Shown here piece by piece: positions 27,826 through 54,149 of a DNA stretch of 64,000 bases. Made by a program: the position numbers and the translations under genes. Under the pieces are notes generated by a model that searched no databases, was not told where the DNA came from, and saw only the letters and a program-made list of their open reading frames with translations. The stretch comes from Tubiluchus corallicola (taxonomy: Eukaryota > Priapulida > Priapulimorpha > Priapulimorphida > Tubiluchidae), in contig JAQGDQ010000063.1 of assembly GCA_030141605.1 (NCBI GenBank), positions 124,001 through 188,000 of the forward strand, read 5' to 3'. Position 1 is the stretch's first letter; each line of letters begins with the position of its first letter.

Positions 27826-27855
27826 ATGCTGATGAGGAAAGTACCTGAAGGATGA
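27826..27855 (+). promoter_or_regulatory. Upstream ORF overlapping the receptor start codon
   Basis: A nine-codon frame (MLMRKVPEG) starts at 27826 and its TGA overlaps the main ATG as ATGA. It contains two in-frame ATGs. If present in the 5' leader, such an overlapping uORF would be expected to reduce initiation at the receptor start or allow reinitiation. Whether this stretch is transcribed is not known. Confidence 0.4.
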
Positions 27856-27948
27856 GGTCAGGGACCGCAGTGATGGTCGTACTACTGGTGTGTAGTGTAC
27901 CGTGCATCAGTGATGTAATACCACGCAAGTGTTTTAGAGAAAAGCCAG
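27852..27948 (+). other. First coding exon of the receptor: signal peptide
   Basis: The ATG at 27852 opens 32 codons beginning [20 protein letters not shown], a basic start, a hydrophobic core and a small-residue cleavage region, which is a textbook secretory signal. The exon ends after one base of a codon at a GTGCGT donor (27949). The next recognised exon (35600) begins with two bases that complete a Glu codon and continues as [11 protein letters not shown], so phase and topology both fit. A pyrimidine-rich run ending in AG lies at 27801-27812, so a non-coding leader exon may be spliced just upstream. The 7.65 kb distance and the gap in the intron are the reasons for some doubt. Confidence 0.75.
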
Positions 27949-30900
27949 GTGCGTACAGCTTTCCTTGTTGTGTCTTCCTGCATGAGTACTTGTGTAGATA
28001 GTTGAAATATGTATTAAAGTTTTTACAAAATTGTTCGAATATCCGCTTAGGCTTGTCCATGATACAGATGGAGAGGAAAACAAAGAGTTGCAGTAGTCTG
28101 AATAATTATAGCAGTCCATATTTTGGATATCTGCTTGAAATTTCGTGATATTTTTATCGATTGTCATTACTTGTAATTATTATTTATAATATAGTTGGCT
28201 AAAACTCTCATGAAACAGCTCGATCTTTGTCACTTCTTGTTACCTATATTGTCAGCAGCTAGAACATCAAAATTAAATTTGATTGCATTCAGGTAACATT
28301 ATCTTGTCTAAATTTTAGTTTTTCTAAGTCTGACACAAATATAACGCGAACAGTCATTGACTGAGTAACCTCACTAACCTACTCTTTTTGTATATATTGT
28401 CTGTTAATTTTGTTTGCAACTCTGAGCCATTAGTTTTGTTTCATAACGCGCCTGTGACGCAACTTCACAGTTTACGATGTTCCATTATTGAAAACTCGGT
28501 CATTTTTCTCGAATTGACCGGTTCTCATCAATTTTGCATTAATTACGTAGACGCGTCTTGCTGCACTTGCATGCAAGTACTGGTGCCATTATTACAGTGC
28601 TTAATACTAATTCAAGCAATTTATTTTCTTTGCTATTTATTTAAAACGCAAGCTAATCAATACGAGTAAAAATAATGTACAATAAAAATTCCATCTCGGA
28701 ACGTCTCTTTCCCGTTTTTTGGAATATTTCTAAAAACGAGAGTTGAAAATTGAAATTTAGTGCAATTTTCATAATTTTTCAATTTTCACGTGTTTTAGAG
28801 CACCGTTCTTTTAAAAATGTGATTACTCACCCAGGATAATCAAATATCATTATTTATTTATTTATTAATTACTATAATTTTATATGTTATTAATTAAACC
28901 AAGGGATTTCTAACGATAGTAATGGGTTGGTCGGGATAATGACGTCCATCAAGTAACCGACGTCAAAGTTAAATATAGCCTCCCCGTTAGAAATTACAAG
29001 GTTGACCATGTCCGGGGTACATCCTTCCTTCCGCCTTTTCCGAAGTATCAGTTTCAGAAAGTTTGCTTAGAGCCCGCCATTACTGTGCGAAGTAGCATAA
29101 CCATGGTCTGTAGATCGTACACGTTGAACGAGAATGATCTGGNNNNNNNNNNNNNNNNNNNNNNNNNNNNNNNNNNNNNNNNNNNNNNNNNNNNNNNNNN
29201 NNNNNNNNNNNNNNNNNNNNNNNNNNNNNNNNNNNNNNNNNNNNNNNNNNNNNNNNNNNNNNNNNNNNNNNNNNNNNNNNNNNNNNNNNNNNNNNNNNNN
29301 NNNNNNNNNNNNNNNNNNNNNNNNNNNNNNNNNNNNNNNNNNNNNNNNNNNNNNNNNNNNNNNNNNNNNNNNNNNNNNNNNNNNNNNNNNNNNNNNNNNN
29401 NNNNNNNNNNNNNNNNNNNNNNNNNNNNNNNNNNNNNNNNNNNNNNNNNNNNNNNNNNNNNNNNNNNNNNNNNNNNNNNNNNNNNNNNNNNNNNNNNNNN
29501 NNNNNNNNNNNNNNNNNNNNNNNNNNNNNNNNNNNNNNNNNNNNNNNNNNNNNNNNNNNNNNNNNNNNNNNNNNNGCATACTGGAATTTGGAAACATATC
29601 CGAGACTTAGACAGGCTCCCATTTTACCATGTCGTAATTTTAAGCTTTTTAACCCTTGCAGAATATGGCGAAAGGCTTTTAACAAAAATTGAACATACGA
29701 TGTAAAAATTATAAAGTTTGAATACGTATAAATTCAGCTGTAGCGCTGTTGGCACGATGCCAAGGCGGGTGAATTTGTCAGAACTTACTGGGTCTGGTAG
29801 GTACAGTAGATCAGCGTCTCATTCACGCTCATAGATTTGTTTTCAGTAAATCTGGCAGCTTGCCAACGCTTTATGTTTCATGCCATGTTTTCGTTGCTTA
29901 GTTTCTGGTATGATTACATGCAGCAGCTACTACTGTTCTAAATGTTTTATGTTTCACTTAATTTTAATCTAGTCTCTCCTCAATGTTTTCTATTCAGTTC
30001 ATTAATTATGTAAATTAGGTCGATGGTATTAATTATTGCTGTTAAACTTCACTTCCGTTGTGCAAAAGAACAACAGCTTGTCTGACTGAGAAGAGCTCTT
30101 TTATTATCTCCTACGTGGATTGGTCTTCGAGACGAGTCCAATTAAGTACACTCTGAGAAAAGTGCACTTAATTTGTCGATATTCAGGTTTTCTCGTTTCT
30201 CATCTTAGAAGGCTGTCCAAGCGCTAAAGGTTGCAAATTATTTTTGCTTTTAAAAAGGATTACAACGACAAACAGCCTCGAAATCGTCAAGAAACATGTA
30301 CATTAAAAATAAGGAGTCGTTTTACTTCAGAAGTGTCGGGTAAATACCAAAAATTTGTTCAGAAACATATTTTGAGCAAGAACTCTCACATAACAAACTA
30401 TAATGGTTTAAATAATTGGCATAGAAAATTTTATGTTTAAAATTTTTTGTGGTGGAAATTGTGGCCTTTGCTGTAGCTACAAGATTGTTAGATGGGGGTC
30501 AGTTTACATTTCAATATAGTCTGTTATTTATGTTGAAACTTAGTTTTTAAAGATTTACTATGTTTTTACTCACAATGAAACGCATTATTCGGAATGTGCA
30601 ACTTCGTTACGCCATTTTGCAGCAATATCAACAATATTCGATGTCACAGAAACTCATTTCACGTGATTCTAATCAACTACTTGGTGAAACTGCCTGATTT
30701 AGGTCAACTTATTGTTAATGTTGAATGTGATAGACTGTGTGATTAAATGCGGTTCTTGTTCTTTTATAAGAATGAACTTCCATTTCATTTCTCATCATGA
30801 TTTACTCCCGAGTTACAAATGTCATACCAGCGTTTGTTAAAAGGAAGCCAACTCAACATCGGATGATGGGTGTGATTAGTAATATGGCGTGAATTGGGCC

Positions 30901-31024
30901 AGCATGAATTGGTTGACCTGTATTGTGGTAACCTGGCTAATTGATTTTGTGCAGTGAAATTCTGAACGAAGGCGTTGATGATACTGATAAGTTCATGCGT
31001 TAACTTTCTGTGCATATGTACTCA

Positions 31025-31077
<53 letters not shown>

Positions 31078-34000: not shown

Positions 34001-37000
34001 GTTTTTCCCTCTCAAAACCGGATTAAATTTGCGATGGATTTGCTGGCAGAAGCTCAGGTTTTTGTACAACATGCACGTATTTGCTGTCGAGCTATTTTGT
34101 GTGACATGGCAGAAACAGCGATTGAGAATAACTAGATTTTTATAAATACTGTAACATAATGATTTAATCACGTAGATACTTGAAGTGTGCCGATCAAGAA
34201 TTTTTGAAACCGATCCGATCCGATACTTCGCTGTAACTTTTTCCCGATCACCCATAGATCAACAGAAAAATTTGTACTATTGACAGGGACTATAAATTAT
34301 TAATCAGAAACATATTAATTGTTAACATATTAAGAAACATAGGAATTGACATTAATATACCACAATAATTTGTTTCTTATTCTTATTCACCACTAGCGGC
34401 AGTTCTTGTCTATATCTATACCTTTTTACGTCTGATTAAACTTATGGTGTTGAATAAAGCCAACATTTTCCCCTATGTCTTTTTAGTTTCTAACATTTCG
34501 GAAACATTTGCAACAGATGACCAGAACGATCCTTTTACTGTATACACGTTTGTTGTCCGTTTCCTTTACAATCACATGACACAAATACGTGCAGGTACAA
34601 CATCTGTTCAAACACACGCATTCATGGCTGTTGTGGAACCGTCGATTTTTTGCAAAAAAAGAAACATGAAATGAAATTCTAGCGTACCTATTTACAACAT
34701 TAGCAATGCGCTTTATCATAAGGAAGAAAGTGTTTTGTAGCGCTAATGAAATTAAGTTTTGCTGCACGCGTATTCTACATTAAGTTTTGTAGGTGAAAGT
34801 CCGACTATCGATGCCAATCAGTCAACCGAGTTTTCCAATCCAATTTCGGTTCGATGCCGTTTGATCACCGATACTTAGTCGGTAAACCTTTAATTGATCC
34901 AATGTAGGCTATATTTATGGTTAGACTCAGCAGAGGGCTTCCTAAAATTTGTGATTAAAAAGAACAACCTTGAAAACGAACAATGCAAAGTCCTGTCTTT
35001 CCAAATCAGTTAAAGTTAGTGAAAAAGCAATTTTGCAATATCAGGTCTGATGATAACGACGACGTTCAGAGTTTGGATTGTGTAAAGCGGCTCAGGCAAA
35101 GCAAAATTCTAAAATTAAGACAGAAGCCATACATACTTTTCTTTCTGTATTTTAAGTAATCTTATTAGTGCTGACTGACAGCTGTGACTGAGACAAGTTC
35201 CGAGAACAGTCAATTTGCCAAATTTAGTTAGTTTATTCATATCATAGCATTGCAAAATGTTTGTGAACTGTAATGTACTTAGAGGATAGGCACTGAACCT
35301 GTTATTATTACACTCCTGGTATAACTTCAAGAGTAGTGTCGATGAATTATAGTATTATTATTCGACATTTTGGTTGGTTGAATTACAAAGCGTAGACCGC
35401 TGTGTTTATAGGAAAGAAAGAGTTGTTGTACATCATCTTAGTGTCAACTGCCAAATGTTGCCAACCACTCTAGTTTGTTTCAATTTTCAGTAAATCCTTT
35501 TGCCTTAATCTTCTCCTTTCAAGCGCCAAATATATTTTCCATAAAGTGCCAAGTTCCACTGTTTTGGGAACATAATTTAAAATTTTCATTTTTTTACAGA
35601 AGTATTTCCAAAGCGCTATCTCTACCTCGATGGTCAGACTTTGGACATCCGCCTGGAAGGAAGCGACCGCGTGTCTCAGACATTGACCAATCACATAACT
35701 AAGATCTTACTAGAAGAGGTACTAGGATATGCGAATGTCACTATCGTTAACGGCACAAACCCTATAAACCCACTGACTGCGATCAACCGAATACTCGGTT
35801 GCAAACCTAGAAGGTAGTTTTTAAGTTCTAATGATAACAGTTACTAGTGAATAAAAGTTGCCACGGTGTTGCCAGATCGCGTGGTAATTTTATTGGTAGT
35901 GTTGTATAAGTTATAAGTTCTATATTTGGTAACCACGTAAGGTCCTACAAGCAGATTAACAAGTGATTGGGAGTACTGTATATTGTCTTAAAAATACTGG
36001 TTGTCATGGGACAAGGGAGCGCAGGACACTCACTGCTGCAATGATATCATTTAATATTATAACAAATAAACAAAATTTTCAAGGAATACATCAATAGAGA
36101 AAAGGTGCAATTGAAATTTTAGTGATTACAGTGCACTTTTGTTCTACGTATTGCTGGCAAAATGCATCGGTAGATCCCAAATTTTAATGCAAATAATTAT
36201 AGAATGTTATAGCTGAATTTCTAAATTAACTTCTTAAACTTAAAATAATTTGTGGATATTTTTAGATGGTTTCCCTGTACTGCACATTTTACACAAATAA
36301 CAGGTAAATCAAAATGTGCAAAAGTGTATTGCTTGCAATCCGCTATATTAACAGCAGTCGTTTGTGTTGACTAGTGTGCGGATCTATCCATAATTACTTC
36401 TGCATCCAGTTTACCTAAAACTTCCCTTTCATTGGATAGCTGCATAATTATGATTCCAAGCTCTACTCAGGCAGCAAATTTCTCAGCCTTGTTTTTATGA
36501 TCTTTAACTTTGAAATTGCCTATAGCATATTGGACTTGAGAAGACAGAGGAACTGGTGGAAATAAAATAAAATTATGTACATAGTAAATGCACTGCAAGT
36601 TCAGCGATATAGCTTAAAAACTGCATGGGATTAAAATACATGGCATTTAGTGATTTTATGCATAATTTTACATGTTCTCATTTCACCAAGAACCAATTGG
36701 CCACTTGCCATCAGGAAGCTGATAACTGGTCAGTCTGCCACTGGACTGAAGTGAGAGTTTTTGTACAGGATTTACAAATCAAACGTGCAGGTCTGTAAAC
36801 TGAAATGTGACCTGCGATTCTAAAAAACCATTATTTTCAGTTGGTATTCTAACTTTAGTTTTTTTCACATTGTCAGATCTCAGTTTACTAATTACAGGTG
36901 ACTGTAACGTCAATTACATCTGATTTGACATATTGATGCTGATTGGTTCTCCACAATTACAAAATGGTCAGGACAGTCTGTCCCTCAAACAAAGTGGTGG

Positions 37001-40000
37001 TTAAACTGTTGACTACAGCAAGCACTTGAAACTACAAATTGGTTAATAAAGGCCAATGGTGGCTGTCTGAACAACTGACATTGATTTGTACAACTATTAT
37101 CTTGATTAGCAAAACACAATCAGTTTTTGTGCGAGGCCTTTAAATTACTAAATGATTTGTGTTCTAGACGTGAGGGTCGATGCCAGCCTTCACAGGCAAT
37201 GTTGGTACCAGACGCTATGGTTAATCTAGAGGCATGGCTAAGTTCTGGGTTTGGTCCGGTCCTCGATAGCTATGTGAAGTCTAAGCGTCTTATAGATTGG
37301 GGAGCACTTGGTCCATCTGGCAGGTATGACACAACTGGTTTCGACTTAGTGAATGTGCGAGAAAGAACGTTGTACTGTTGTTGTTTTACTAGTTACTAGT
37401 TACCTGTATATGCACAATTTACATTGTTGTTCGAAAGTTTTTGTGTGCAAGAGGTTTTAATGCAAAGTGTATCAGTGTCCGTAACGTTGAATTGCACTTG
37501 GTAACTCGCCAACATGGGTGTGGGTAACCCACATGAGTAAGAAAAACTGGGGTGTTTAATAACAGATTTCCTACAAATATGCCATAAATTAGTAGATTTG
37601 TCATTTGGGGATTTCTTTTGTTGTGCTCCTATTCAGAATTGTTCAAACATTATTCTAGATTAAGTGTATACAAATATTCTTTCACAAATAGAGTAGTGTC
37701 TGGAATGATCTTGATTATGACGTGGTTAATGTACCAAACATAGACAGTTTCAACGTCAGACTATCAAACTGCTCCGTTTTAATAATGGCCTGCTGCCATT
37801 ATTTTGTATAAAAAGTATTTTTATAAATGTTCTTAAATAAAATAATTAAAATAGATAAATATTGTATCACAGCATTTCATGTCTCACTGTGTCTCATCAT
37901 TAAATGAACTAATTAAGTCAATAAGAAAGAAGCAAAGACCACTTGTGCTGCCCGTATGCATAATCTTGCCTTCTGTAGTGCATTGCTCATGTTCAACACA
38001 ATGTAAAAGAGTTGCATTATATACACATTATGTATACACTAATTAATGTCAAAGTTTACAAATGTCTATAACGAAGACGAAACTGTATTCAAGTTCAACG
38101 TATTCAGGTTGTTTTGACAATTGATCCTGCATGTGGTATCATTGACGCATATAAATTTTTTAAAATAAAGCATTTTTTGGAAACTAGTGATGCTACTGAG
38201 TATACCTGTGCATGTAAATGACTATTTGTAGCTACGTTAATTTACAACTTTACATTATATTTATTACAGAGGCTTGAATCGCGTGTATAACAATAGAATA
38301 TAGCAGTTAATTCTGTATTAGTTTCTGTTTGAATTGAATTTCCATTCAGTGTTGCTATTTGGACTGAGATATTGTAAGGTTTTGCCATTTTTTTATATTG
38401 CAGTCATGTAGAATTGGATTTCTTGTAATAAATTTCTTTAGATTTGGTTGGTTTGCACTGACTACTGTTGTTGAACGGCTCTGGGCCAACTACGGTTTCA
38501 TTGTTGACCACTGGCGAGCATTGCAAATGGAAGCTGTTGCTAAACGCTTTGATTTGAACATCATGGATGAACCAGAACTGTTGAAGTATGTGAAGCGAAA
38601 AGTTGACATTTGCAGGAAAGGTCCATATCTGTGCAATGAGTACGGGATTTTATTGTCACCAAATTGCACTGGCAGTTCACCGTGTGCTACTTTATTAGTT
38701 GGTCACTCGGGTAAGTTAAGCTATGTATGTGAGTATCCTTAGTAAAAATCTATCCCTCAGCTCAATTTTTGAATCCTTGTGTAAATGATTTTAGGGTCAT
38801 ATACATGCATATTTATTCATGCATTGCATGAAAATCTGTGCAGTTTGGATTATTTCAGATTGTCTAAAAAGTGCAACATATAGTTTTTATGAAGAAATGG
38901 TGTATTAAATTATAAATATTTATTTGTTCTCTTTTTTGCTGTAAGCCTAGGAGCGAGCCTCTATATATCTGAAAAAATAGTAACTTTTTAGTCAGGCTGC
39001 TCAAAAAATAATCTTGTGTTTTGAGGTAAGGAAGACATATTTAATTTTTGCAGACACTGGTGCAGCCATTGTTGCAGAACAGGTCTACCAGCTACAGCTC
39101 AGGGTCAATGTGGCTTGGGTTGGTTCTAACCTGGAAGCCATTGTCAATAGTCGTTCTCTAGCAGGAGAAGCTACGCTGTTCTTTACAATGCAGCCAAGTA
39201 CTTTAACATCCAAGGCTAACTTTACTCGTATAGCATTTCCATACTGTGAAAGTGTGCTTCTGAGCAGTCATTCAGAATACTGTGATTTTGAAGTAAGTAT
39301 TTTTTGTTGAACTTTTTATTGTGCTTGCTAAGCTTTCTTAAGCATCAAAATTCAGAATGTTGTTATAAAAGTTGGACATAAGTGGGGGTAATAAACTAAT
39401 GAGAATGCTGGCATGTCATGTATGAAAACTTTTCCATTGGGCTGTAGAGAGCTGGTTGGCATAGTTTGGGAGAATTTCCTGCCATGATTGACTGATTTTG
39501 AGAGTGTTCTAGATATGAAATAATTTACAAGACGCAGGACTTTTTAAACCCCTTACCGAATAATTAATTCTCAGGGTTGTTTTATTTTCGTACGTTAAAG
39601 TAATATTTAAATGGTAACAAGCATCTATCTGTTTGCGTTTTTGTATCTAACATGTTAATAGCAGATGAATTTATCACACTAATATTTTCATTTAAATAGC
39701 TATTGCATTTTTAAGTATCTTAACTGATTTCTTAACTTAGCAAAGTAGTGCACTAGAACTGTTACCAAATGTGTTATTTGTTGCATGAAACATTGTTTGT
39801 TAGTTCTCACAGGGTACCAATTATCTTCAGGTCCATCAACTGAGCAAGGTGGGTTGGCCTGCTATACAGGCACATACCCCACAAGCTGCTCATCTTTTCC
39901 AACATCTTACTTTCACCAAGTACCAGTACCAGCAGTTGCTGCAGAACTATGACAGTCGGCAGAACTTTTGGCATACTGCCTGTCGTTGGCTGAAGCAGAA

Positions 40001-43000
40001 CCGTGCTATCTGGGAAGCTTGGATACCAACGAACTTAGAGAACAAAACAAAAATATACCTGGGAGGAATGTTTCCCATATCTGGACCTTCGTGGAAGCAA
40101 CCTGGCATTGTGCCTGGTAAGTAAATTTATCTTTTCTACCATGTTTCAAAAACTAATGAAGCTATTTTATCGTAGCAAAATGTTATTTTATTTATGAAGT
40201 AACAACTAGTCACATTTATGCGTATTTGCTTTTTTAGCTGTTCATATGGGATTGGATGCCGTAAACAGTAACACCAAGATCCTTCCTAATCATGAACTGG
40301 CAGTTCTAGTTCATGATAGTCAATGTCAGCCAGATATAGTTATGAAAATATTCATTCGTTACATCACCAACACTACCCACAAAATAGCTGGTATTATTGG
40401 TGAGTAAATTGTGCTGTTAAACAGTCTATTTGTAATAACAGGAGTATTTATTTATGAGATGTTAAAGAACTTTTTTCAGTAAACGATAATGTCACGGGCT
40501 TTTTTGAACTTTTATTGAAATTCGTTACTTTGAATCCATGATAGCGTTTGCCATGCTAGTGGCCTCCCAACTGTCAACTCAAGTCTTTGATGACTTTTAG
40601 TTGCAGGCAGCATTTTAATCTAGCAATTAAAAGCTGATAATTACTGTTTTGAACCTACTACTGCATCTGCTTTTTTTCAAAATACTCTGAAAGAAGGTGC
40701 CCAGTGTGTTAGTCAGCACTGTTAGGCATGCATCTGATATCCACAACTAGCATGTGAATGTGTGGATTATTTTTATCGATTAGTTTGTAGTTGGGATTAC
40801 AAAAGTTTGTGATCTTGCAGCACACTTTTACATGTAGTCATTTGTTCATTATTGTTGTCAAAACTCATAAAACATTTTTGTTTGAACTGACATTTGGTGA
40901 ATAGGCATTTTGTTTAAGGTTATCAGTTTATCTCTTGCAACTGAGAGGTGGGGAAGAATTGCACTTTACTATAGAACAAGATATTTAGTATACTGCATCA
41001 GTAATTTGATCTATAAATGGTTTGTGACTTGCTTACAAAGCACTACTGTTTCCTAGTTTAATTATTTTTACTCTTCAGGTCCAGGCTGTTCTGATACAGT
41101 GGAGCCCATTGCTGGTGTGGCCAAACATTTTAATACTGTGATTATTAGCTATAGTGCTGAGGGTGGTCTCCTAGATCGTGAGAATTATCCGTACTTCTTC
41201 CGCACATTGCCTTTCAACAGTGTTTACAGGTATGCTTGTAAGGGAGTGCAGTTTTATTGCATTAACTTCTTTACTGTTAAAATGACGCTTGTTCAGAGTT
41301 GGTGTAAGTAGTACTGGAAAGGTAAGTCGGTGTAGCTTATTAACACACCTGTCATTGAGTGTTGACTATTTGTGGTGTAAATTATGTGATGTCATGACAA
41401 GTCTGTAATTCTTTTGACTAAATATGATCTAAAGCATGTTTTAATTCTATATGGCAAACAAATTGCAATATATTGTACTGTTGGAATCGTATTCAGTACC
41501 CAATTTTCCTCTTCTATATAGATTTTAAAGATTAGTAATAATTGTGTATTGAATGATACCATATTTTTGCATCATGTTTTCTCCCACACAAAGTAAGATT
41601 AAATGTACCCTTCTCATGAACAAATTGCTTTAAATTTTCATTTGTTTCCATTTCAATCAAAGCATTCAATAGTAGCTAAACTCTATAAATGCTTTTCAAT
41701 TGTTTTTTTCTTTTTTAAGTTTTATTTCAATTGTACCATGTAGATTTAGATGTACAGTTGAATTTAATTTACAGTTGCAAATTTGTTGCACTAATTTCTT
41801 TTTAGTAATCTGTACAAAGCTGAAACGACAAATTTCATGTATATCTTCTGTAGTATATATGACTATTGACCAATAAAGATGTCTATGTCTATCTCCAAGA
41901 CTGCAGAGTTAAGATAGTCAAATTTGCCAAATCTTCTAACTTAAGATAAACACCTCGTTTCACTTCAAGTGTCTAATCTCACACCTTTCATTTTACATGT
42001 TAAAGTAGGCATTTTCAACCTGCCTATTCACCCTTTGCATTTGTATTCTAACCATGCAGCAGTTTTACTTATTGTAGCATTGCCATAGTTGCTTCTGAAA
42101 ATTCATCTACATTTATTCTTGCATGTATTCATTCTTGCATGATTATTTTCATTTGTCATTTTTTTTTCAGTTATGTGTATTTAAAATTGTTCAAACGGCT
42201 AGGATGGAGGCAGATGGCTGCACTAACTGAAGACGGTAACAAATATCCGGAGTACATCAGCCTTCTTGCCACTGTCATGCGTAAAAATGGAATCAACTTA
42301 GTGTTGAATGGAAAGTTCCCACGTACCAAAGGAAAAGCAAACATGTCAACGGTATTGCCTCATTTTATTTTACAACTTTTAATATTGCAACTTGTAAGAG
42401 ATTGAGTGATTGATTGATTGTTTATTGACTAGAAAGAATTACATAATAAAAACGTATTACATAATAAAGAATTACATAATAAAAATAATTACATAAGAAT
42501 TACATTACATACTTTAATTCAGCAAACACTTAAACAAAATACAAGACTAATATATGTACATTGTACATAGCACTTAGGCTGAATATCACAAACACAACTT
42601 CTGGTTGCAACAAAATATCGAAAAATTCTTTTTATTGCTAAATAGGATTTATTATATTAATAATACTCCTTTTGCATAATATTGTATTTAATTGAAAACA
42701 AAACTGATTTCATACTTATCTATGCAAATCTTAAACATGGGGCACTATACTTAAGGAATGTCGCATTCATAGGCATACCTCATCAGATTTGACTATACAC
42801 CTTCAGACATTCAGAGACATACTGAATAGACAGTTTAACATCTGTCTTTTGGAAAATGTCTGCCAACGAGGTAACATTTACTTGCAAAATCATTAATTTG
42901 ATTTTCTGTAAATTCATATTTGCATCAATCTTGTGACTTTGTGTTCATAGGAGTCAATTACAGTAATTACTATGTGTTTATGAAACTTGTTGGTTTTCTG

Positions 43001-46000
43001 CAAAGCTAGTTTCTGTTTTGTAGTTACTGGACACAGTGAAGCAGAAAAACGCACGTATCATCATAGGTGATTTTCCGGAATATGCTGCCCGAGCTATCAT
43101 GTGCGAGGCATTTAAAAAGGTATTACTATTTTGACTTTGATTACTGAAATATTTCTTTCAATATTTGTTTATGGAATAACATATTTTGTTGTTTAGAATT
43201 ACGCTGTTATTGATGTTGTGCATTTCCATTCTTGTGAAATCTGCTGCTTGCTTCTTTTCATATTTGCTGCTCTTCGAATCAATCTACCAAAACTTCTTGT
43301 GCGTCAAACAGCACACAATGACTTATAAGGGTTTTAACTACAATATGACCTGCTTTAAAATAAAAAAAAGTTTAAAAAAGGCTTTGCATGCTTTGTGGCT
43401 TATATTTATTAAATCGTATTATCTTTATTCACAACGAAATTCTGACTTGAAAATGAAAACAATTTCTTTATAATGGTTTTAGACCGTTATTTAGTCGAAT
43501 ACTACAAACTGCTTGTTGCTGCATTATTGCTGATATAGTACACTTATATTTGGTCACTAGGAGAGATTAATCACTTTCGTTGAACTGTTCCTACTTTCTT
43601 TGAACTATAACTACTTTCACTGAACTGTTCCCTACTTTCATTGAACTGTTCTTACATCTGTTGAACTGTTCCCTACTTTCATTGAACTGTTCCTACTTCA
43701 TTGAACTGTTTCCTACTTTCATTGAACTGTTCCTACTTCATGGAACTGTCCCTACTTTCATTGTATTTTTCCGTACTTTCATTGAAGGTTTTTAAAAATT
43801 ATGCCAAGGCTTTTTTATTCGGTAATACGGTTTGCAATGTGATTAACAGATGTACTACACTGATCACATCTAACACGCTTGATGAGTAAGCATGTTAGAT
43901 TTTGTACAGGTACCTTATTTAATGGAAAATTCCTAACACTAGATGTCTCACAAGTCACCATACATTTTACATTTTGTATTTTTTAAAGTGCAAAGCAAAA
44001 TCTTTGAAGATATGTATAGATAAATTAAACTTTTGAGAATTTTTTTAGTTAAATTAGCTGAAAATACTAAAAGAACTACTTCACTACAAGACTTCTATGT
44101 AAGCCACTTTTTTATATCATTTGAACTAATGATTAACACATGTATTTCCAATGTCAACATTTTAAGTGAAATGTTTGTGTAACAATATAATTATTATTTC
44201 AACTTCATGAAGAAGTCTTGATCTTGTTCTAGAAGCTTCTCTTGATGTAGGTTAGCCTCTAAAAAAATCACGAGAGTCAAACCTGTCAGTTCACAGTGTT
44301 TAACTCTAGAGTGGCTCAGTGACCAACACATCAGTTCTGTGGCCTAGCTAATTGGGGAGCAACCACTCCGCCGAGCACATTTTTCAAAAATGGTGTCTTT
44401 TCAAGAAGCTGCCTTGTTGCTTTATTTGACCAACTTGCCTTTCATGTTTTTGAAAATTAATGAGCATGCTTTTACTCATATGTAAAGGTTGACCGATTGA
44501 ACCAAGGATCAAATTGCACCCTATCCAATTATTATAACATATTCCTGCAACGTGCTGATAATGTCTGTTGTGGCATCGGCAAACGTATAATTGTTACGTG
44601 TCGCAGCACGTCTTTGGTATGTGTCATGGTGCCTCTTTTATGTGCCTGCTCCCCCTAACTTTAGAACCCGGCTGTGCCTCTGCATCAGCTGGGTAAGCAA
44701 AATGTTGAGATATTCTCAATTACAGTTGTTCTGTCATACCAGAGTTTTTTTAGATTAGGGAAAATGAAAACTAATAGACTTCATTGGGTATATTGACATG
44801 AGACATTCTATAATTTTGTGTTTTTTTGTTGTGTATTTTACTTTGGAACATTTTGCTTAGCAGTGGCACTTGTCATTGTTTTGTCAGCCATATTGAGCTA
44901 TGTCTTAGAAGTCGAAGTTTGCTTGCAGTAGCATTACTTTTACTTTTGCAGAAAATGACTGGACACGATGGTTATGTTTGGTTCTTGCCACGGTGGTATG
45001 TTACGCGATGGTTTGATACAGACTTATATAACAACATTGAGGGAGGTTTACGTGAGAATGTAAAATGTAATACCACTGAGATACTGTATGCCATGGAAGG
45101 TCACCTAAGTCTCACCCCAGCATTTTTTGATGAGGATTCGACTACAGTGGCTGGACAGATGACCGTCAAGCAGTTTAAAGAAAAGTATCAGAAACTACTC
45201 GATGCTGAGGTACATAGAGATGATTTGCGTATTGTGTCAAGTGTTTGCAATAGTGTAAAGTAGATAGGTGATAGTTGTCATTTGTCATGAAAAATCCAAG
45301 TTATCTGAACAGTAGATATGGATTAATGGGAACTGAATTATCACAGTTGGATTTTCTGGGCAGTTTTACCACGTTTGCTTCTAGTAAACATGTTTACAGC
45401 ATCAGACTTACTAACCGTTTGACTTAAAAATGAGTGTGAAATGTGAAAAAGTTCCTGGCCGCTGCCATGTGACTAAGGGGACAAATTCTGCGCCTGAAAG
45501 TTTTGCTTTTTTGGGTATCAAAATCAAATTATCAAAAAATTAAGACAAAAAATTAAGGTATTTTTTTGGATATTACTGAGCTTTCTTGTGCTATTATTGC
45601 AGTTCACGATGCTTTATATATTAATACGTTCTTTTGTACACATGAAAAGAATCCAAAAATGCTTAATTTTCAATAATTGTAATACCTTTTAGTGTAACAT
45701 ACATTTGTGAGACTCTTAAATGCTACTGTATTATTAACAGTAGTTCTACTAGTTGTGTTGTTGTAGTTACTGATGGCGAAGGAAGCCAGGCCATTTGTAA
45801 ACTTGCGTGTGAAGTGTGTGAAGTTTTGGAATGCATGTTAACCGAAATTTTGTGTTTGTGCTTGTGTAAAGAACTTGAAGTGCATGTGATGTATAACTAA
45901 TGCTTGAGAGTTGGAAAGTCTGCAGCATTTACAATTTTATAGGATGATAACATCAAGGATGAGAGATCAGAAATTCATTTACAGGTGGACTTTTTCTAGA

Positions 46001-49000
46001 AAGTGTAAGAATAGTAAAGCTTGATTTGCCAAATAGTATAGAATGTTTTTGTAAAATTTAGATTAGAGTTAGTTACTAGTTACTGTGTATTCTGTATTAT
46101 TTACAGGATAAAGATTTTGGTAATTACGCTGGAATGGCTTATGATACAGTCTGGGTATATGCATTTGCTTTACATAAGCTTCTGAACCATGATCCTAGCT
46201 CGCTGGAGTCAATAACTAGTGCCAACACAATCAAGTAAATCTAATATTCATCTTATTATTTTATTATCAAGAGTAGCACAATTTGCAAATTCTGGTTGTG
46301 TTGTTTTTTACAATTGGATACATGTACGAGAAATATTAAATTTTGTTAGTAAGAGCAGCTTTTTAAGTTAGATCTAGAATGTAGAAAGAATGACCAAGCA
46401 GTGGGCATCTGCAGAGTGGCATATGTGCAACGATGATGACTTTTATAAAGGATTATTAATTATGATGAGAAGTTATTTTAATGGCTTTTTAAGTGATTTG
46501 TATGTCTATACAACTTGTTTATATTAAGCGATTTTCACTGTTGTAAGTGAAAATAAGAACCTTTCAAATATGCCACAGTTGTGAACTTTGTATAGTACAT
46601 TGATTTACTAATGACAGTAAGCAAAAGAACACATTTGCTGCTTTATCAGAATCTTTTATTTTGCTTTCTTTCATTGTTATCTTATTTGAGTCATTATTTT
46701 TTTGTTAGAAAGTACATGCAATTTCTCGAGGAGACCAACTTTCAAGGCGTGTCCGGACACGTTATGTTCAATGGTCCTAGCCGTGTGGGTAAAATACAGG
46801 TGCTGCAGAATTGGAAGAATAGCAGTGAGCTGATTGGAACGTGAGTTTTCAATCACTATTGAACCGTCACTATTCGGTATTAATTCGCTAACTTCGTATA
46901 GTGGGTATAAAAAGTTGTTTTACTTCCTACTGAAAACAAGTAGCATTTGTTGCACATTGCTATTTTTTCATAACTTATGCACAGTAACGCGTGAGGTATA
47001 CTGTACATCTCTGGAAATTTAAGTTTTTGTTTGCTGTAATTAAACTATTGTTTTTCGTCTGTTGGAGTCAAATATTACATCACAAAAGTGAGTGAGACTC
47101 CTTCCCCTAGCTTAAATGCAATTAGAAAATTTTTAATAACAAACATTTATACATGTTGATCATAACTCGGCAAACTGAATTACTTCGTACTCTCAGTTTA
47201 ATAAATCTGCTTTTAGTTTTTAAAAGGTTAAATATCTTGTTTTTAAAATTTTCGAAAGATTGCTTATTAGCATAGAGGAAATGAGTTTTTGGAAAAACAG
47301 AAACTGAAGTAATTTGAATTGCAGTTAAATGAGTTGAACTATCAAATTGCCAAGCAAATAACTTGTTTTTGACTTTATTTAAATAAAATATGAGAGATGT
47401 TGTTAATAACGATGCATAAACAGTCAATAATGAAATCCAATATTTCTGTCTCAAAATGAAATTGTAGCTGTAACTAAATTAGCCATAATTTTTGAATGTA
47501 GCTTGTTTCTGTATCTAATTAATAGTTTAATAAATTAATGTATTAAATTAAAATTCAAAAGTTTTATATTATCATTGTTGCTCATTAAACTTTAAAACTG
47601 CCATCATGAGTTGACATTGTTATTCGAGCTTTAAAAGATGCCTGGCAATTCTACTGATTTTGCTGCAAATGCACTTTAACATTATTTTGTACTTTTACTC
47701 TGGAATTATTGTATTATGCATGACAATGTTCTGTGCTTGCACAGACATGTAAAACATATCTGTGTTTCCAGGTATCAAATGGATAAAGGTGAGAAGCAGA
47801 ATGGCACTTTGGAGCTGAATGAATCAAATATTGTGTGGTTAACACCTGACGGTACTGTTCCAACAGACGGGATACCTGGTATGTGTTTGTTAACGAGTTT
47901 GAACTAACTGATCTGAAGTAGATTTCATTCGTTCTCTCAAAAATTACCTTTTCGTACTCTACAATAACTCAGCTTCTTACAGTTTGCTGAGACAGTTTAA
48001 TGATTTATGATAGGGATTTGCAGCAGTTGGCAGTTGCTTTAAAATAAAAGCATTTGAATGTAAAATGATTCATAGTTACAAAGATGTGTAACTTCTCATC
48101 AACTGTGCTGTATTGCTTGCACTAATGTTACCTCTTAAAGCTAACGTTTTGCAAGGCTGTCACATTATACAATGTACTTAGTCTTATGTGTCAAATATAC
48201 TATAGCAAGTTTTGTTTTAATTTTATAGAAGGGGAGGTATGCTCTATAGAAGGTTTTCGGGCGGTACTGGGTGTCAGTTGTGATGTAGCTATTCTTATTG
48301 CCAATATACTTGGTATTGGTTCACTAGCTCTAGTCATGTGTGCAGTATTCTTTGTACTTAAGAAAAGGTAAGTGCTAACATTATACGAAAGCAACATTAT
48401 TCTAATCGTTTGCCTTTACATTTTTGTCTTATACTATAGATTTCAATGTAAAGGTGTTTCTTCATATGAACACTAATTCAACAGTTTACTTATTTAATTG
48501 CAGCACTAAGTATGTGATTTAACTGACGCGTTAGACATGAAATTACTTGAATAAACTGACTTTTTACACATTTTGTCAGATATGAGAAGCAGGTACTTGC
48601 TACACAGAACCGTATGAAGGAGCTTGGTCTAATGTCTCCCGATATGCTAGCACTTGATGAATGGGAGATGCCTCGAGATCACGTAGTCATCAATCGAAAA
48701 ATTGGTGAAGGTGCATTTGGCACAGTCTACGGTGGTGAGGCCTACTTTGACCACATCGGCTGGGTGGGTGTGGCTGTGAAAACGCTCAAGATTGGTTCCA
48801 CTGCTGAGGAAAAGGCAAGTTTTGGGAGGGGGAGTGGTGTTATGATTTGTTGATTAGATAAGAAGGATTAAATGAGTAAGATTTAGCACTTTTGTCAACT
48901 TTCAAATACATTCTTCGTTGATTTCTCTGAAGAAATAGTGTTTTCTCATGTTAAAAAATGGTCATATAACTAGAAAAAAAGAATCACCATTGTAGCAACA

Positions 49001-52000
49001 TCTTTTTACCCTTTGAGAAACACATAATTTATGTCATTTTAATAAGGTTTTTTCTTGAATTTGAAATTTTCTTTTGACTGCTTCTAGCTGGACTTCCTCA
49101 GTGAAGCAGAAATGATGAAGAGATTTGATCACAAGAACATTGTTCAGCTGTTAGGTGTGTGCACTAGGGGTGAACCAGCATACATGATATTAGAACTCAT
49201 GCTGTATGGTATGTAATTCACTTTTTAATATAAGGTCAGCTATTGAGTGTATGTGTGCAGGATGCGTTTTAAGACTTGAAAGAAGCTGCTGCTTTAGGAG
49301 GGACAAAAGAGGGATAGATGCTGGACTTGTGTGGCGGGTTACGCGATAACTACTTGTAGCTCAATAGTGATACTACTTGGCATGCTGCAAAAACTTTTTG
49401 GTGCCTGCAAACATATCTCTGTCTCTGCAAACACAGTGAGTGTTTGTAATGTAGCAGTAGCACCACTAGTTATATAAAAAATAAATAAATTGTTACTTGA
49501 GCACATTTTCACACTTTTTATTTCGAACCTGAACTCTTTTTTTAAATAATTCATGTTTATTTAAAGCTTATCGTGGTCTGTTAACAGTAGGCATTAATCA
49601 AACTGTGTGTAACTTTAAACAAGGGATGTTTCGGGCTTGCACCTGAAATCGGCAAGTCAGAGTAGGTATTAGGCTTCTGTGATGAAATTACTGTGACTAC
49701 AATGTAAGAAATTCTTCAGAATCTTAGTGGAGTTCACATTGCATCTTTTAGTGTAGTGCACCGGATACTTAATTACGTTTGAGTGCTTGCCCGCCCAGGT
49801 GGCTGTGGCAACTAACCTACAGACGGAAAGCTGTTTTACACCACCCAACTCGCCCTTAATATGCCAGAATCTTCATTATTTGGCTACTGCTATGTTCATC
49901 CAATTACATATAATCTGACTGTATGAGTATATGTTGGCTACTAATCAAGCTCACATAGTAAATGTGTTTTGACTACAGTTACTAAAAATCATCATACTGT
50001 TGATAAAATTAAGCCTTTTGTAGGAAAGTGGAAATATAAATACATATCTGGTAAAAAGAATTCCTAACTAATTTGATAGTTATAAGTTGAAGCAGCTAAA
50101 ATCTTGTTGTTAGGTTTGCAATGCAGCAGCTATTAACATAGTTTACTTATTAGGACATGTAATACAGAGTGGATTAACACATTATTTTTAGTTCTATTTT
50201 CTAATTAGTGTTACTTAATTATAGGTGTCAAATGAGGTGACAATTGGCCAAGAGCAGTTTTGCTAAAATCCATAACACACTAGACAAAATCTGTGTGCAA
50301 TAATGTGGATCTGCTAGTGTGTACTCTCATCGAAGGCTGTTTTTCCAGCTTTTCTCTACACAAATTTATATTTAACATGTTCAGTTTTCTGTTTCACACA
50401 AATTCATCCTGCTTCAGCATGCAGGCTGGCACAAAAATTTGCATCGGACAAAACCAGGTCAGATCAATAAAATATCAATTGTTTGTCATGTGGCACGTAC
50501 TAAATGTTTACTGCAGTTCTCCAAACAAAATGGCTTCATACAAAAATTACCGTGCGCATACAAATTTTGTATGAAACAGTTTTCACCACACAGTTTGCTG
50601 CATACAGATTTTTTTGCCATGTCTGACTAGTAGTGTATAATTTGATTGGTCTTCCGTTGTGTAAATAGGTAAAGGCGTACAGAGATGAATAAAAAGCTTT
50701 TTTATTAATAAAGGTGATTTGAAAAAGTACTTGCTGGCTCGGAGACACCTAGTGGACAATCCACACAGTGACGAAGCGGCTGATATTTCTTACCGAAGAC
50801 TCACACAGATGGCACTGAATGTAGCATGTGGGCTCAGCTACCTCGCAAATATTAAATATGTACACAGGTGTGTGATCGCGAAAATGATTAACTTAATGAA
50901 TAGACACAAAAGAATCTTTAAATTCTGTTTTCAGTGTGGCACTCATAGAAATGTTACTGGCTGTTGTGTTCTTTTTCAATTTATTGCATTCCTCATCTGA
51001 AATACAGTAAGTCCTTGTTTAAAGCTGCTAATGCGTTTCAGCAAAATGTGACGTTGAATGATATGTCGTTAAATGAAGTCATGCCTGCATAAGAAGCAGT
51101 GTAAAAGCATGCAATTGCTTTAACAAAATCAAATAGTGCTTAGCTCATAAAAATGCAGGTAACTGTGTGACCTGCGCAACTTGTGACTGATCAACTTTTA
51201 CGATCGCAATTTAATTAATTAATCAAAATTAATTATGATTCTCGTTACCTTCTGTTTTTAAGTGTAGTAACTTTAAATCGCCATCTATTTTGATAAATTC
51301 ATCCATGGGCGTCGCCATACTTAGTGCATTACATACACAACATCTGACTTGTAGAAGCACTTTACTTCAAATTACATGTCTGACTTCTGTCCAACTTATC
51401 TTACCATTGATCTTTACACATTAAAGCCAAACTATGCTAAATGGAGAGTCATCAAGTAGGAAACTGTTCTCCCCAAAATATTTTTATAATGACATGCTTT
51501 GTATTGGTCCTGTTTTAGGGATGTAGCTTGCAGGAATTGTCTAGTAAATGCCGGACGTGCAGTGAAGATTGCTGACTTTGGAATGTGTCGCCCAATGTTT
51601 GATTCAGATTATTACAGATTCAACAGACGTGGTACGTTAAGTCATAGAAATACTAGGTTTTTTTTTTCATGAAAGTGTAATAGATTGCAACATTATGAAT
51701 GCCAAGTTGTGGTATTACTTGATACATTAAGTTTCTTTGTGGAAGAGCGCCTAACAGCTTTGGGGTTTTGAATTGAACACTCATTGTAACCAGTCCTGGT
51801 TGTGGATCCTAGCATTAACAACCATTGGTTGTAATTCATATCAGTGTAAATGTTATTCAAAGGAGAGAATCGTTAGAAGAAATGTGAGCTTGACAGTTTT
51901 GCAGTCGTAAATCTTTTGGGAGATAGTTCATTTGAGCTTTTTAAATTATGATCATTTAAATTGTTATTAGGAATTGTATTCTTGGTAAAAAATGATGATA

Positions 52001-54149
52001 TAATTGGAACAGTTTAAAGCTAATTTGTAATTAGGTTTTATTATTTAGTAATCTGCATATGAGATGTCTATTTCATGTGATCAAAGAGATCATATGTTGT
52101 CAACTGGCAGCTAGTAATTACAACAATTAAAACTGCCAGTAAATCTGATATTTTTAGGGATGCTTCCTGTACGTTGGATGGCTCCAGAAAGTCTTCACGA
52201 TGGTTTATTTACTCCTGCTTCAGATGTTTGGAGTTACGGAGTCTACTTGTGGGAACTTGTTACCTTTTGCAGCTTCCCATATCAAGGTTTTTCTAATAAT
52301 GAAGTTCTTCAGTATGTAAAAGAAGGCGGATGTTTGGATGTTCCAAATGGAGTTGATTTACCCATGTATGTTTTTACATTTTTCTAAACACGTCATTTTA
52401 TTGCTGAATCCCGTTAATAACACACCGTATTTTTGCAACCATTGTCCATCATTGAATCGAATGATGTGTTGGAGTGGGGACATCGATAGTGAAAATCTTT
52501 GTGTTGTGCCCATAAGTTCCAGCTGGGCTAGACCAGTTACCACCTGCATAGTACAAATAGGCAGAAGGTTCATTTATTAGATGCTAGATAATTTTGACAT
52601 TGGCATTGCCTTATCACTATGTCACTTTAATCTATAGCTTTGGAATAAGCTTGAGATTTAAGGTTGTCAAGTGTAATAAATAAATACATAGAGGCCTTTG
52701 CCTGTAATATTTGTGTGGTCTTGGGTATGAGAAGGTCTTGACTTTTTTGGTTCAGCTACTTAAGTTGTCTTTCAAATTTTGTAGCTTGTGTTTGTTTATT
52801 TTGCATGTTTTAGTTTTATGTAAGATGCTGACTTGCGTGTTTTCAAGTTCATAATTTCCCAACTTAGGCTTTATCGAGAAGTATGACGTCTGTATTTTCA
52901 ACTGTGTTTGATATGTGTGCAACTCTTGCATCTAAATACCTGGTATCTTTTCTGGTTATCTGCCTCTTTTAACACATATTATTTAAATATTACAAACTTA
53001 CTATTTGTTGTTCTATTAAAGTGATTGTAGCAAAAAGTTTTCGGATATTTTCTTCAGGGCAAAGCTAATGCGAGCTTGTTGGGAGCGTGATCCAAAAGAT
53101 AGAATAACTGCCATGGAGATTGTGGAAATACTGGGTACGAATCCTGAGATGGTGAAACCTTATTTGGACCAACCTCTGGCTGCCGTTGAAATAGAAGGTA
53201 CACATGGCGATAGAAGAGCTTTTTTGTTGCATCTGATTAATAGTGTTTTGAATTAACACAAAACTGTGCATTTGTGGTTATTTATATACAATTTGTTTCA
53301 CATTCTCATACGCCTTTTGTCTCTATCGCATCAATGAGATCCTAGGATTAGCACAGTGTAAATGAAGCTCAAATAATGATAAGGATTACAAATAACAAAC
53401 TAAACTAACTGAATGAACTTTCACATATAAATTTTGAATTTTAAAACTGACTAAAGCTCAATGAAACTGAGTGAAATCGTTTATTTGTGCTTTGTTTATA
53501 GGTTCTTAGTCATAGGATCTCACTGATGATATAGACGGAAAGGCCTATCAGAGTGTGAAATAAACTGCATATAAATAACCACAAGTGTGCCGTTTTGCAT
53601 TATTTAAAACACGACAATAGAACATTTGTGATTAATGTTTGCTTTTTGGTAACAATAACAACCAGCATGACTAGTCTGTGCACACATTGAGTTCTACAAA
53701 TTTTATTTTGGTGCTTTTGCTTCGGTATGTGCAGCAGTAGAAGAATTTGTCTTAAATTTGACTGCATAGTTTTATGGTTTTCTCTTTTTTCAGGTACGGA
53801 CTCGCTAGAGATGCAGTTACCTGAACGTCAAGACAAAGTGCCTCCAATGTCAAATTTTCACGGTTTTCCAGGGCTCGGGCCATTTGTACGCTCATTCAGT
53901 ATGTCAGTGCCACAAAGGCTTAGAAATCAAAAAACTGAACATCATGGTACCATGGACAACCTGCATTTGCGAACCTTAAGCACGGGTCAAGATGGAAGAC
54001 CAGCACACTCTTGTGATGAAAGTGACCCGCTGCGTGAGCCAGAATCAGATAAAAGTGCTTTTGACCATCACAAACTTGGAACTGTGCGAGAAAGATTAGA
54101 CAGCGACTATTGGAGTGTTACATCCAAAGAAAGAAATACGAATGTTTAA
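27852..54149 (+). CDS. VKR: Venus kinase receptor with extra OpuAC-like binding module (22 exons, 1319 aa)
   Basis: Receptor tyrosine kinase of the cell surface. Coding exons read by eye: 27852-27948, 35600-35813, 37168-37323, 38442-38710, 39054-39292, 39813-40116, 40238-40399, 41079-41229, 42171-42351, 43024-43119, 44952-45209, 46107-46234, 46709-46840, 47772-47878, 48229-48367, 48580-48814, 49088-49208, 50714-50867, 51519-51631, 52158-52365, 53058-53197, 53794-54149. Every junction keeps phase and the total is 3960 nt without an internal stop. Layout: signal peptide 1-20, OpuAC-like module about 33-400, GABA-B-like Venus flytrap about 404-815, one membrane helix 851-875, kinase about 913-1180, tail to 1319. 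Flytrap plus helix plus insulin-receptor-like kinase defines the Venus kinase receptors; known members respond to amino acids or, in mosquitoes, to the peptide OEH. The ligand here is unknown. Intron 1 (7.65 kb) holds the assembly gap, so an extra exon there cannot be excluded. Confidence 0.92.
29143..29575. other. Assembly gap (433 N)
   Basis: Run of N inside receptor intron 1. Frames reported across it are meaningless. Confidence 1.
31028..31075. repeat. (GCT)16 microsatellite
   Basis: Sixteen uninterrupted GCT units in intron 1 of the receptor gene. The perfection suggests a young and length-variable locus. Confidence 0.97.
31512..31592 (-). repeat. tRNA-like element (class II, decayed)
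   Basis: On the minus strand, GCGGGTG at the 5' end pairs with CACCTGC at the 3' end over seven positions with one G-T pair. GAGTGGTTAAGG fits an A box and AATTCGAATCT a B box, and the 81-base length suits a Ser/Leu-type tRNA. The anticodon and T stems pair poorly, so it is a tRNA pseudogene or SINE head. Confidence 0.45.
35600..40040 (+). other. Exons for the OpuAC-like (type 2 periplasmic-binding) module
   Basis: Residues about 33-400 of the receptor, exons 2 to 6. The reading resembles bacterial glycine-betaine/choline ABC-transporter binding proteins: ILLEEVLGY near the N-terminus, then [20 protein letters not shown], then [12 protein letters not shown] followed by VVERL, then [13 protein letters not shown] with FTRIAFPYC. 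These match in order the family pattern of an early LEE.LGY helix, a LEAW segment, a GW(F) turn and the late 'P..L' hydrophobic strand before a charged cleft strand. The module is followed by [19 protein letters not shown], a helical linker that leads into the flytrap. Several N-glycosylation sequons (NVT, NGT, NCT, NFT) fit an extracellular location. Identification rests on remembered family patterns; a profile search would settle it. Confidence 0.7.
41700..41900 (+). repeat. LINE 3' UTR remnant
   Basis: CTGTACAAAGCTGAAACGAC, then GACTATTGACCAATAAAGAT followed by GTCTATGTCTATC, is the usual 3' end and simple tail of CR1/L2-type elements. It lies in receptor intron 8 on the plus strand. Confidence 0.5.
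42400..42560 (-). repeat. LINE/SINE 3' tail, minus orientation
   Basis: GAGTGATTGATTGATTGTTT at 42402 is, inverted, an AATAAACAATCAATCAATC tail, followed on the plus strand by several ATTACATAATAAA words. It is a 5'-truncated retroelement in receptor intron 9. Confidence 0.45.
43574..43787. repeat. About 22-bp minisatellite (TTTCATTGAACTGTTCCTAC)
   Basis: Nine or ten degenerate copies, spacing 20-24 bases, in receptor intron 10. One strand is pyrimidine-rich. Confidence 0.9.
48229..48367 (+). other. Transmembrane exon of the receptor
   Basis: Exon 15 encodes residues 832-878. It has a short extracellular linker with two cysteines, then about 25 hydrophobic residues ([20 protein letters not shown] onward, 851-875) and a KKR stop-transfer signal. 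This is the only hydrophobic helix between flytrap and kinase, so the receptor is single-pass, unlike the seven-pass GABA-B receptors with the same kind of binding module. Confidence 0.92.
48580..53197 (+). other. Exons for the tyrosine kinase domain
   Basis: Exons 16-21. Visible landmarks: glycine loop [12 protein letters not shown] (G920, G922, G925), ATP-anchoring Lys in VAVKTLK (K945), helix-C Glu in FLSEAE (E962), catalytic loop HRDVACRN (D1049, N1054), DFG (1067-1069), activation loop with a YY pair (1079-1080), then [11 protein letters not shown] and [12 protein letters not shown], ending near residue 1180. All catalytic residues are present, so the kinase should be active. The [12 protein letters not shown] and DFGM features place it with insulin-receptor/ROS/ALK kinases, as in Venus kinase receptors. 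Oddities: HRDVACRN instead of the usual HRDLAARN, and Phe in place of the first of the three activation-loop tyrosines of insulin receptor. The junction after exon 16 uses a GC donor. Confidence 0.95.
53794..54149 (+). other. Cytoplasmic tail exon and stop codon of the receptor
   Basis: The last exon encodes residues 1202-1319, a hydrophilic tail rich in Ser, Pro, His and charged residues without a domain I recognise, ending NTNV and TAA at 54147. Tyrosine is nearly absent; the one clear candidate docking tyrosine is in DSDYWSV, about 16 residues from the end. If intron 21 were retained, the frame would read on from exon 21 for about 20 codons and stop at 53256, giving a receptor with a kinase but no tail. 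Confidence 0.88.

Follow-up and report, generated by a model that had tools for sequence, protein, structure and literature searches.

A type-2 binding-protein module of the OpuAC/TmoX class ahead of the Venus flytrap in a priapulid Venus kinase receptor and its relatives

The single Venus kinase receptor (VKR) of the priapulid Tubiluchus corallicola is predicted to carry two different bilobed extracellular domains, a type-2 module and then a type-1 Venus flytrap (VFT), followed by one membrane helix and a kinase, and the type-2 module appears to be an ancient part of the receptor that descriptions have omitted. We give this reading a probability of about 0.9. Papers cited here by PMC number were available in part, and what is said of them refers to those parts. 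They describe the VKR as flytrap plus kinase (PMC3703292, PMC2680970, PMC4026697, PMC4522560, PMC5601475, PMC6401105, PMC5969738), as a preliminary description of this DNA had already stated, and none mentions OpuAC or a type-2 module in VKRs. Table 2 of PMC3703292 lists many VKR genes in which three to eight exons precede the flytrap and, in the part available, gives that region no domain name. Searches of the open-licence literature that paired VKR or tyrosine kinase with OpuAC, glycine betaine, or periplasmic binding found no paper on such a module in VKRs, and a search for VKR together with priapulids also found no paper.

Gene model and receptor identity

The window, by which we mean the whole 64,000-nucleotide stretch of DNA analyzed, holds 22 coding exons on the forward strand between 27852 and 54149, assembled from stop-to-stop frames, splice sites, phases, and coding score. 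This independent assembly returned the same span and the same 1319 codons as the preliminary description; a better acceptor for exon 6 gives 1313 amino acids with one terminal stop. The gene model comes from genomic DNA, and residue numbers refer to the 1319-residue version of the protein. The coding exons are as follows.

27852..27948, + strand: exon 1, start codon, signal peptide (hydrophobic residues 1-25), and conserved KC motif before the module
35600..35813, + strand: exon 2, first part of the type-2 binding-protein (OpuAC/TmoX-like) module
37168..37323, + strand: exon 3, module; Trp127 (equivalent of TmoX Trp102)
38442..38710, + strand: exon 4, module; G-R-F-G-W-F motif running on from exon 3; conserved cysteines
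39054..39292, + strand: exon 5, module; the OpuAC Pfam match region begins here
39831..40116, + strand: exon 6, module end and first strand of the Venus flytrap (start at 39813 in the 1319-codon model)
40238..40399, + strand: exon 7, Venus flytrap
41079..41229, + strand: exon 8, Venus flytrap; CSDTVEP with the probable conserved ligand serine (PMC6401105)
42171..42351, + strand: exon 9, Venus flytrap
43024..43119, + strand: exon 10, Venus flytrap
44952..45209, + strand: exon 11, Venus flytrap; GYVWFLPRW motif
46107..46234, + strand: exon 12, Venus flytrap
46709..46840, + strand: exon 13, Venus flytrap
47772..47878, + strand: exon 14, end of the Venus flytrap
48229..48367, + strand: exon 15, juxtamembrane cysteines and single transmembrane helix
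48580..48814, + strand: exon 16, kinase N-lobe (GEGAFG, VAVK); GC donor
49088..49208, + strand: exon 17, kinase
50714..50867, + strand: exon 18, kinase up to the HRD motif; weak acceptor
51519..51631, + strand: exon 19, kinase catalytic loop, DFG, activation-loop tyrosines
52158..52365, + strand: exon 20, kinase C-lobe (PVRWMAPE)
53058..53197, + strand: exon 21, end of the kinase
53794..54149, + strand: exon 22, cytoplasmic tail and stop codon

All introns are GT-AG except for the non-canonical GC donor of exon 16 (AAG/GCAAGT, with GC at 48815-48816). Across the 21 junctions, comparison with seven VKR homologues from other animals left the frame unbroken, and only the exon 5/6 junction carried an unshared insert, six residues (GTNYLQ) absent in all seven. 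Starting exon 6 at 39831, 18 bases downstream of 39813, removes these residues; the 39813 start was rejected because the compared homologues lack them, and alternative splicing between the two acceptors is possible. The homologues also need no additional exon between exons 2 and 3, and the best candidate for one, of 11 residues, was therefore rejected. The first intron contains a run of 433 N (29143-29575), either a gap or sequence that was withheld. Tandem repeats lie at 1725-1888 (32-base unit, 5.1 copies), at 26028-26386 (48-base unit, 7.5 copies), and, in the intron between exons 10 and 11, at 43573-43786 (20/41-base unit).

By domain content the predicted product is a Venus kinase receptor, with a VFT, a single helix, and an insulin-receptor-like kinase. 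Pfam assigned a kinase (2.3e-85) and an ANF_receptor domain (3.9e-54); the closest PDB match of the VFT was GABA-B subunit 1 (2.5e-54), and those of the kinase were IGF1R/insulin receptor (about 1e-79). Hydropathy windows exceeded 1.6 at residues 1-25 and 838-877 only, as expected for a signal peptide and one membrane helix. These results bear out the GABA-B-like flytrap, membrane helix, and insulin-receptor-like kinase named in the preliminary description. The catalytic motifs of a tyrosine kinase are present, ADFG included, as are the VFT motifs CSDTVEP and GYVWFLPRW. The serine of CSDTVEP is probably the conserved VKR ligand serine, as placed through the CSETVEP primer site of Ser505 in the Anopheles receptor AgVKR (PMC6401105). 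In a VFT-plus-kinase tree of 50 rows, the T. corallicola receptor branched just outside all 30 arthropod rows, with SH-aLRT values of 99 on both branches from a short search with no bootstrap, a position consistent with a non-arthropod ecdysozoan such as a priapulid.

The honey-bee receptor AmVKR and AgVKR likewise combine a GABA-B-type VFT, one helix, and an insulin-receptor-like kinase, and they share the conserved VFT serine, the GYVWFLPxW motif, and the kinase motifs (PMC3703292, PMC6401105). Their descriptions give VFT and kinase, whereas T. corallicola VKR and its relatives have a type-2 module before the VFT (PMC3703292, PMC6401105). This contrast probably lies in the description only and reflects no real difference between the proteins. 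Activation by L-amino acids and dimer formation have been reported for other VKRs (PMC2680970, PMC6401105).

A type-2 binding-protein module precedes the flytrap

The module comprises residues 33-405 (~370 residues), between the signal peptide and the VFT. Residues 33-400 had been proposed to form an OpuAC-like type-2 binding-protein domain, and a profile search of PDB, an HMM-HMM comparison, and a fold comparison all agreed with that proposal. A profile built from 13 VKR N-termini found (hmmsearch) 4xz6, the trimethylamine N-oxide (TMAO)-binding protein TmoX, at 1.6e-10 and a DMSP-binding protein at 6.5e-6. HMM-HMM alignment of 31 module sequences with 76 TmoX sequences gave a probability of 97.2% over 275 columns; as controls against TmoX, the reversed profile gave 0.1%, eight column shuffles 0.0 to 0.3%, and the VKR flytrap 0.3%. 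Judged by these controls, the family-level signal is far beyond chance, at a sequence identity between module and TmoX of about 13 to 16%.

The Pfam OpuAC model (PF04069) scored 12.9 bits on the whole T. corallicola protein and 18.0 bits (E=0.0024) on its module alone, below the curated cut-off of 21.2 bits, and the best PDB match of that module alone was 4xz6 at E=0.11. Of seven chosen relatives, five of them chosen for their OpuAC flag, six passed the cut-off. Among 13 module sequences, five matched OpuAC at E<=1, together with scattered single unrelated families (best, Rdx at 0.008), and two matched the NCBIfam ProX model; five further VKR relatives gave no OpuAC match at E<=1.

Structure prediction for the homologue P0038 yielded a bilobed type-2 fold whose nearest folds were all quaternary-amine binders; the P0038 gene model is truncated, missing the final portion of the module and running into foreign sequence at its end. 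For the T. corallicola module itself, the type-2 fold is assigned by profile, the folded model being that of P0038. Foldseek and VIA searches with the full-length model of P0006, which contains the complete module, returned flytrap-type matches only, among the matches listed, and therefore make no statement on the module.

The known proteins of this class (TmoX, DmpX, OpuAC, and ProX) are bacterial ABC-transporter substrate-binding proteins, whereas the VKR module is the predicted extracellular domain of a single-pass animal receptor; it also differs from them in having six near-constant cysteines and in not keeping Glu131 and two cage tryptophans. When the T. corallicola genome was searched with the module, the five matches at E<=1 were all exons of the 27852-54149 locus. 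The only Pfam OpuAC gene in the assembly lies on contig C1324, in a bacterial-looking operon encoding an OpuC/ProX-like binding protein, a permease, and an ATPase. This operon is from a symbiont or contaminant and is unrelated to the VKR module.

The module is a regular part of VKRs in seven phyla

Relatives were collected with two main queries. A search with module plus flytrap returned 37 proteins, 35 of them VKRs, and a search with the kinase N-lobe only, a query unable to favor the module, gave 277 matches, of which 120 were listed. Together with three fragments from a module-only search, these made a sample of 145 proteins. Among the matches listed, 140 proteins had a VKR flytrap, and the module was near complete in 121 (30 from the module-plus-flytrap search and 91 new from the N-lobe search), partial in 14, and absent in 5. 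It was found in 121 of the 121 listed VKRs with >300 residues before the flytrap. All five module-less receptors start within eight residues of the flytrap, and 11 of the 14 partial ones begin inside the module at residue 1-3. The remaining three, P0032, P0089, and P0117, come from odd gene models; the gene that yields the short form P0089 also has a longer product, P0091, with a near-complete module.

Module-bearing VKRs among the matches listed span seven phyla, represented by arthropods, annelids, a brachiopod, a nemertean, molluscs, sea urchins, and a hemichordate. The lineages of four of these species were taken from a database look-up. No cnidarian or flatworm VKR occurred among the matches listed. 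The hemichordate sequence, P0112 from Glandiceps talaboti, is a VKR with the module; hemichordates are absent from the six phyla of PMC3703292, in the part available.

Judging from this distribution, the module is an old and regular part of VKRs, at least as old as the last ancestor that protostomes and deuterostomes share. The suggestion that it might be present but unremarked across the family thus proved apt, and the alternative that it is peculiar to the T. corallicola receptor does not stand. It diverges faster than the flytrap (36% versus 50% identity to Tachypleus). Among module-length proteins, a word-limited search found no standalone or bacterial protein with the module, only three VKR fragments. 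A precomputed Pfam OpuAC flag is attached to 6 of the 120 listed N-lobe matches and to none of the 37 module-plus-flytrap matches, so that databases already contain a hint of the module.

Comparison of the ligand pocket with that of TmoX

The TMAO site of TmoX is formed by Trp55, Trp102, Phe106, Glu131, Trp177, Phe220, and Trp222, and the equivalent of Glu131 is essential in TmoX of Pelagibacter (PMC8918994). These columns were located in 122 module sequences through the HMM-HMM alignment, which is not certain at Trp55 and Trp177. The position of Trp55 (residue 56) is Arg in 107 of 122 and Trp in 2; Trp102 is matched by Trp (Trp127) in 115; Phe106 falls opposite a gap; and at the Glu131 position Glu never occurs (77 have Phe, 17 Tyr, and one Asp). 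At the poorly anchored Trp177 column, Thr occurs in 67 and Trp in none. At the Phe220 position 56 sequences have Leu and 52 Phe, and the Trp222 position is Trp in 90 and Met in T. corallicola. TmoX Arg130, Asp132, and Trp133 correspond to Arg156, Gly158, and Trp159, found in 108, 114, and 117 of the 122 modules, and in 100 modules Trp127 occurs together with an aromatic residue at 291. By conservation percentile, Arg56 and Trp127 rank 9th and 5th, and the positions of Glu131, Phe220, and Trp222 rank 28th to 29th. The aromatic box plus Glu131 of TMAO/betaine binders is thus not found in the module. As aligned here, the bacterial TMAO/amine cage is lost, yet part of the site is highly conserved, which favors a changed ligand or a changed role.

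Alternative readings of the module

That the module belongs to a separate gene, joined to the receptor only on paper by our exon joining, is suggested by the 7.65-kb first intron. We give this reading almost no credence and rejected it: phases and junctions fit, the module is present in all 121 long VKRs among the matches listed, and in relatives such as P0003, P0041, P0042, P0070, and P0135 the whole receptor lies in single ORFs of about 1240-1320 amino acids on contigs of 4.1-5.5 kb. The case that the preliminary description had named as fatal to its model, exons 2-6 in a separate transcript, thus does not hold in these relatives. A receptor whose module still binds quaternary amines (betaine, choline, or TMAO) and acts as an osmolyte sensor would fit the nearest folds, all of them quaternary-amine binders, as well as the retention of Trp127 in 115 of 122 modules and its pairing with an aromatic residue at 291 in 100. 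Against it stand the loss of Glu131 from all 122 sequences (one has Asp), Trp in only 2 at the Trp55 position, Thr in 67 and never Trp at the Trp177 position, the gap at Phe106, and Met in T. corallicola at the Trp222 position. Because the TmoX cage is not conserved, this reading, in which a betaine- or TMAO-type osmolyte is the ligand as the preliminary description had envisaged, is unsupported; we regard it as improbable and rejected it.

The two more credible readings divide over whether the module binds a small molecule at all. The one we favor slightly, though at somewhat less than even odds, holds that it no longer does: the module would serve structure or docking, by setting flytrap dimers or by binding a protein hormone, for example, a neuroparsin (OEH). 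Loss of the cage residues and faster change than in the flytrap are consistent with such a part, which the six conserved cysteines would stabilize, and the mosquito VKR binds and is activated by OEH, with the site discussed as VFT only in the available part of PMC4522560. Neuroparsins, however, are described there in arthropods only, whereas the module is older and occurs in molluscs, annelids, echinoderms, and a hemichordate; moreover, this reading leaves no need for the conservation of Trp and Arg close to the former pocket. Those same residues argue for a living small-molecule sensor with a ligand other than betaine or TMAO (perhaps an acidic or zwitterionic metabolite held on Arg56), so that two solutes would be read at once. 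Arg56 (107 of 122) and Trp127 (115 of 122) are among the more conserved columns, and Arg156, Gly158, and Trp159 beside the former Glu131 are kept in 108, 114, and 117. This reading, about one step less probable in our view, sits less well with the middling conservation at the Glu131, Phe220, and Trp222 positions, the Met of T. corallicola where most VKRs have Trp, the uncertain alignment at Trp55 and Trp177, and the rate at which the module changes relative to the flytrap (36% versus 50% identity).

Proposed working of the receptor and implications

In the tandem architecture proposed here, the outermost part would be a type-2 periplasmic-binding-protein module of the OpuAC/ProX/TmoX class, next to it a type-1 flytrap of the GABA-B kind, from which one helix would lead to the insulin-receptor-like kinase. 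Other VKRs respond through the flytrap to amino acids, to arginine most of all, and they dimerize; the mosquito VKR binds OEH (PMC2680970, PMC6401105, PMC4522560). As reported for those receptors, the T. corallicola flytrap would close on an amino acid and bring kinases together. The type-2 module may cap the outer end of each flytrap and tune this closing or kinase-pairing step, either through a ligand of its own, distinct from the quaternary amines of bacteria, or by holding a partner or hormone. The receptor may have two working small-molecule sites. A bolder and rather doubtful extension is that VKRs are a family of two-input receptors, in which the module, rebuilt around a new arginine-containing pocket, would sense a second ligand and gate the flytrap/kinase response to amino acid or hormone.

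OpuAC has been reported as the N-terminal domain of other eukaryotic receptors, the fungal class C GPCRs of Allomyces (PMC3251606), which, unlike VKRs, are seven-helix proteins with no OpuAC-flytrap tandem joined to a tyrosine kinase. In schistosomes and mosquitoes, VKRs control reproduction, and they have been proposed as drug and vector-control targets (PMC4522560).

Since the module is common to relatives in seven phyla, the usual picture of the VKR family looks incomplete. Ionotropic glutamate receptors are animal receptors that likewise combine a type-1 with a type-2 binding-protein fold; they differ from the VKR in having the type-1 fold first, another type-2 class, and an ion channel in place of a kinase. 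If our reading is true, the VKR would be a second animal receptor plan, after these glutamate-gated channels, to join both bacterial binding-protein fold classes. Questions of VKR ligands (arginine, calcium, OEH, and the docking place of the hormone) have so far been argued from the flytrap alone, and the arginine and neuroparsin responses of the family have been studied without the module in view. If every full-length VKR has a type-2 module of ~370 residues, that module belongs in constructs, docking models, and ligand screens, and how one VKR answers such different ligands would become directly testable.
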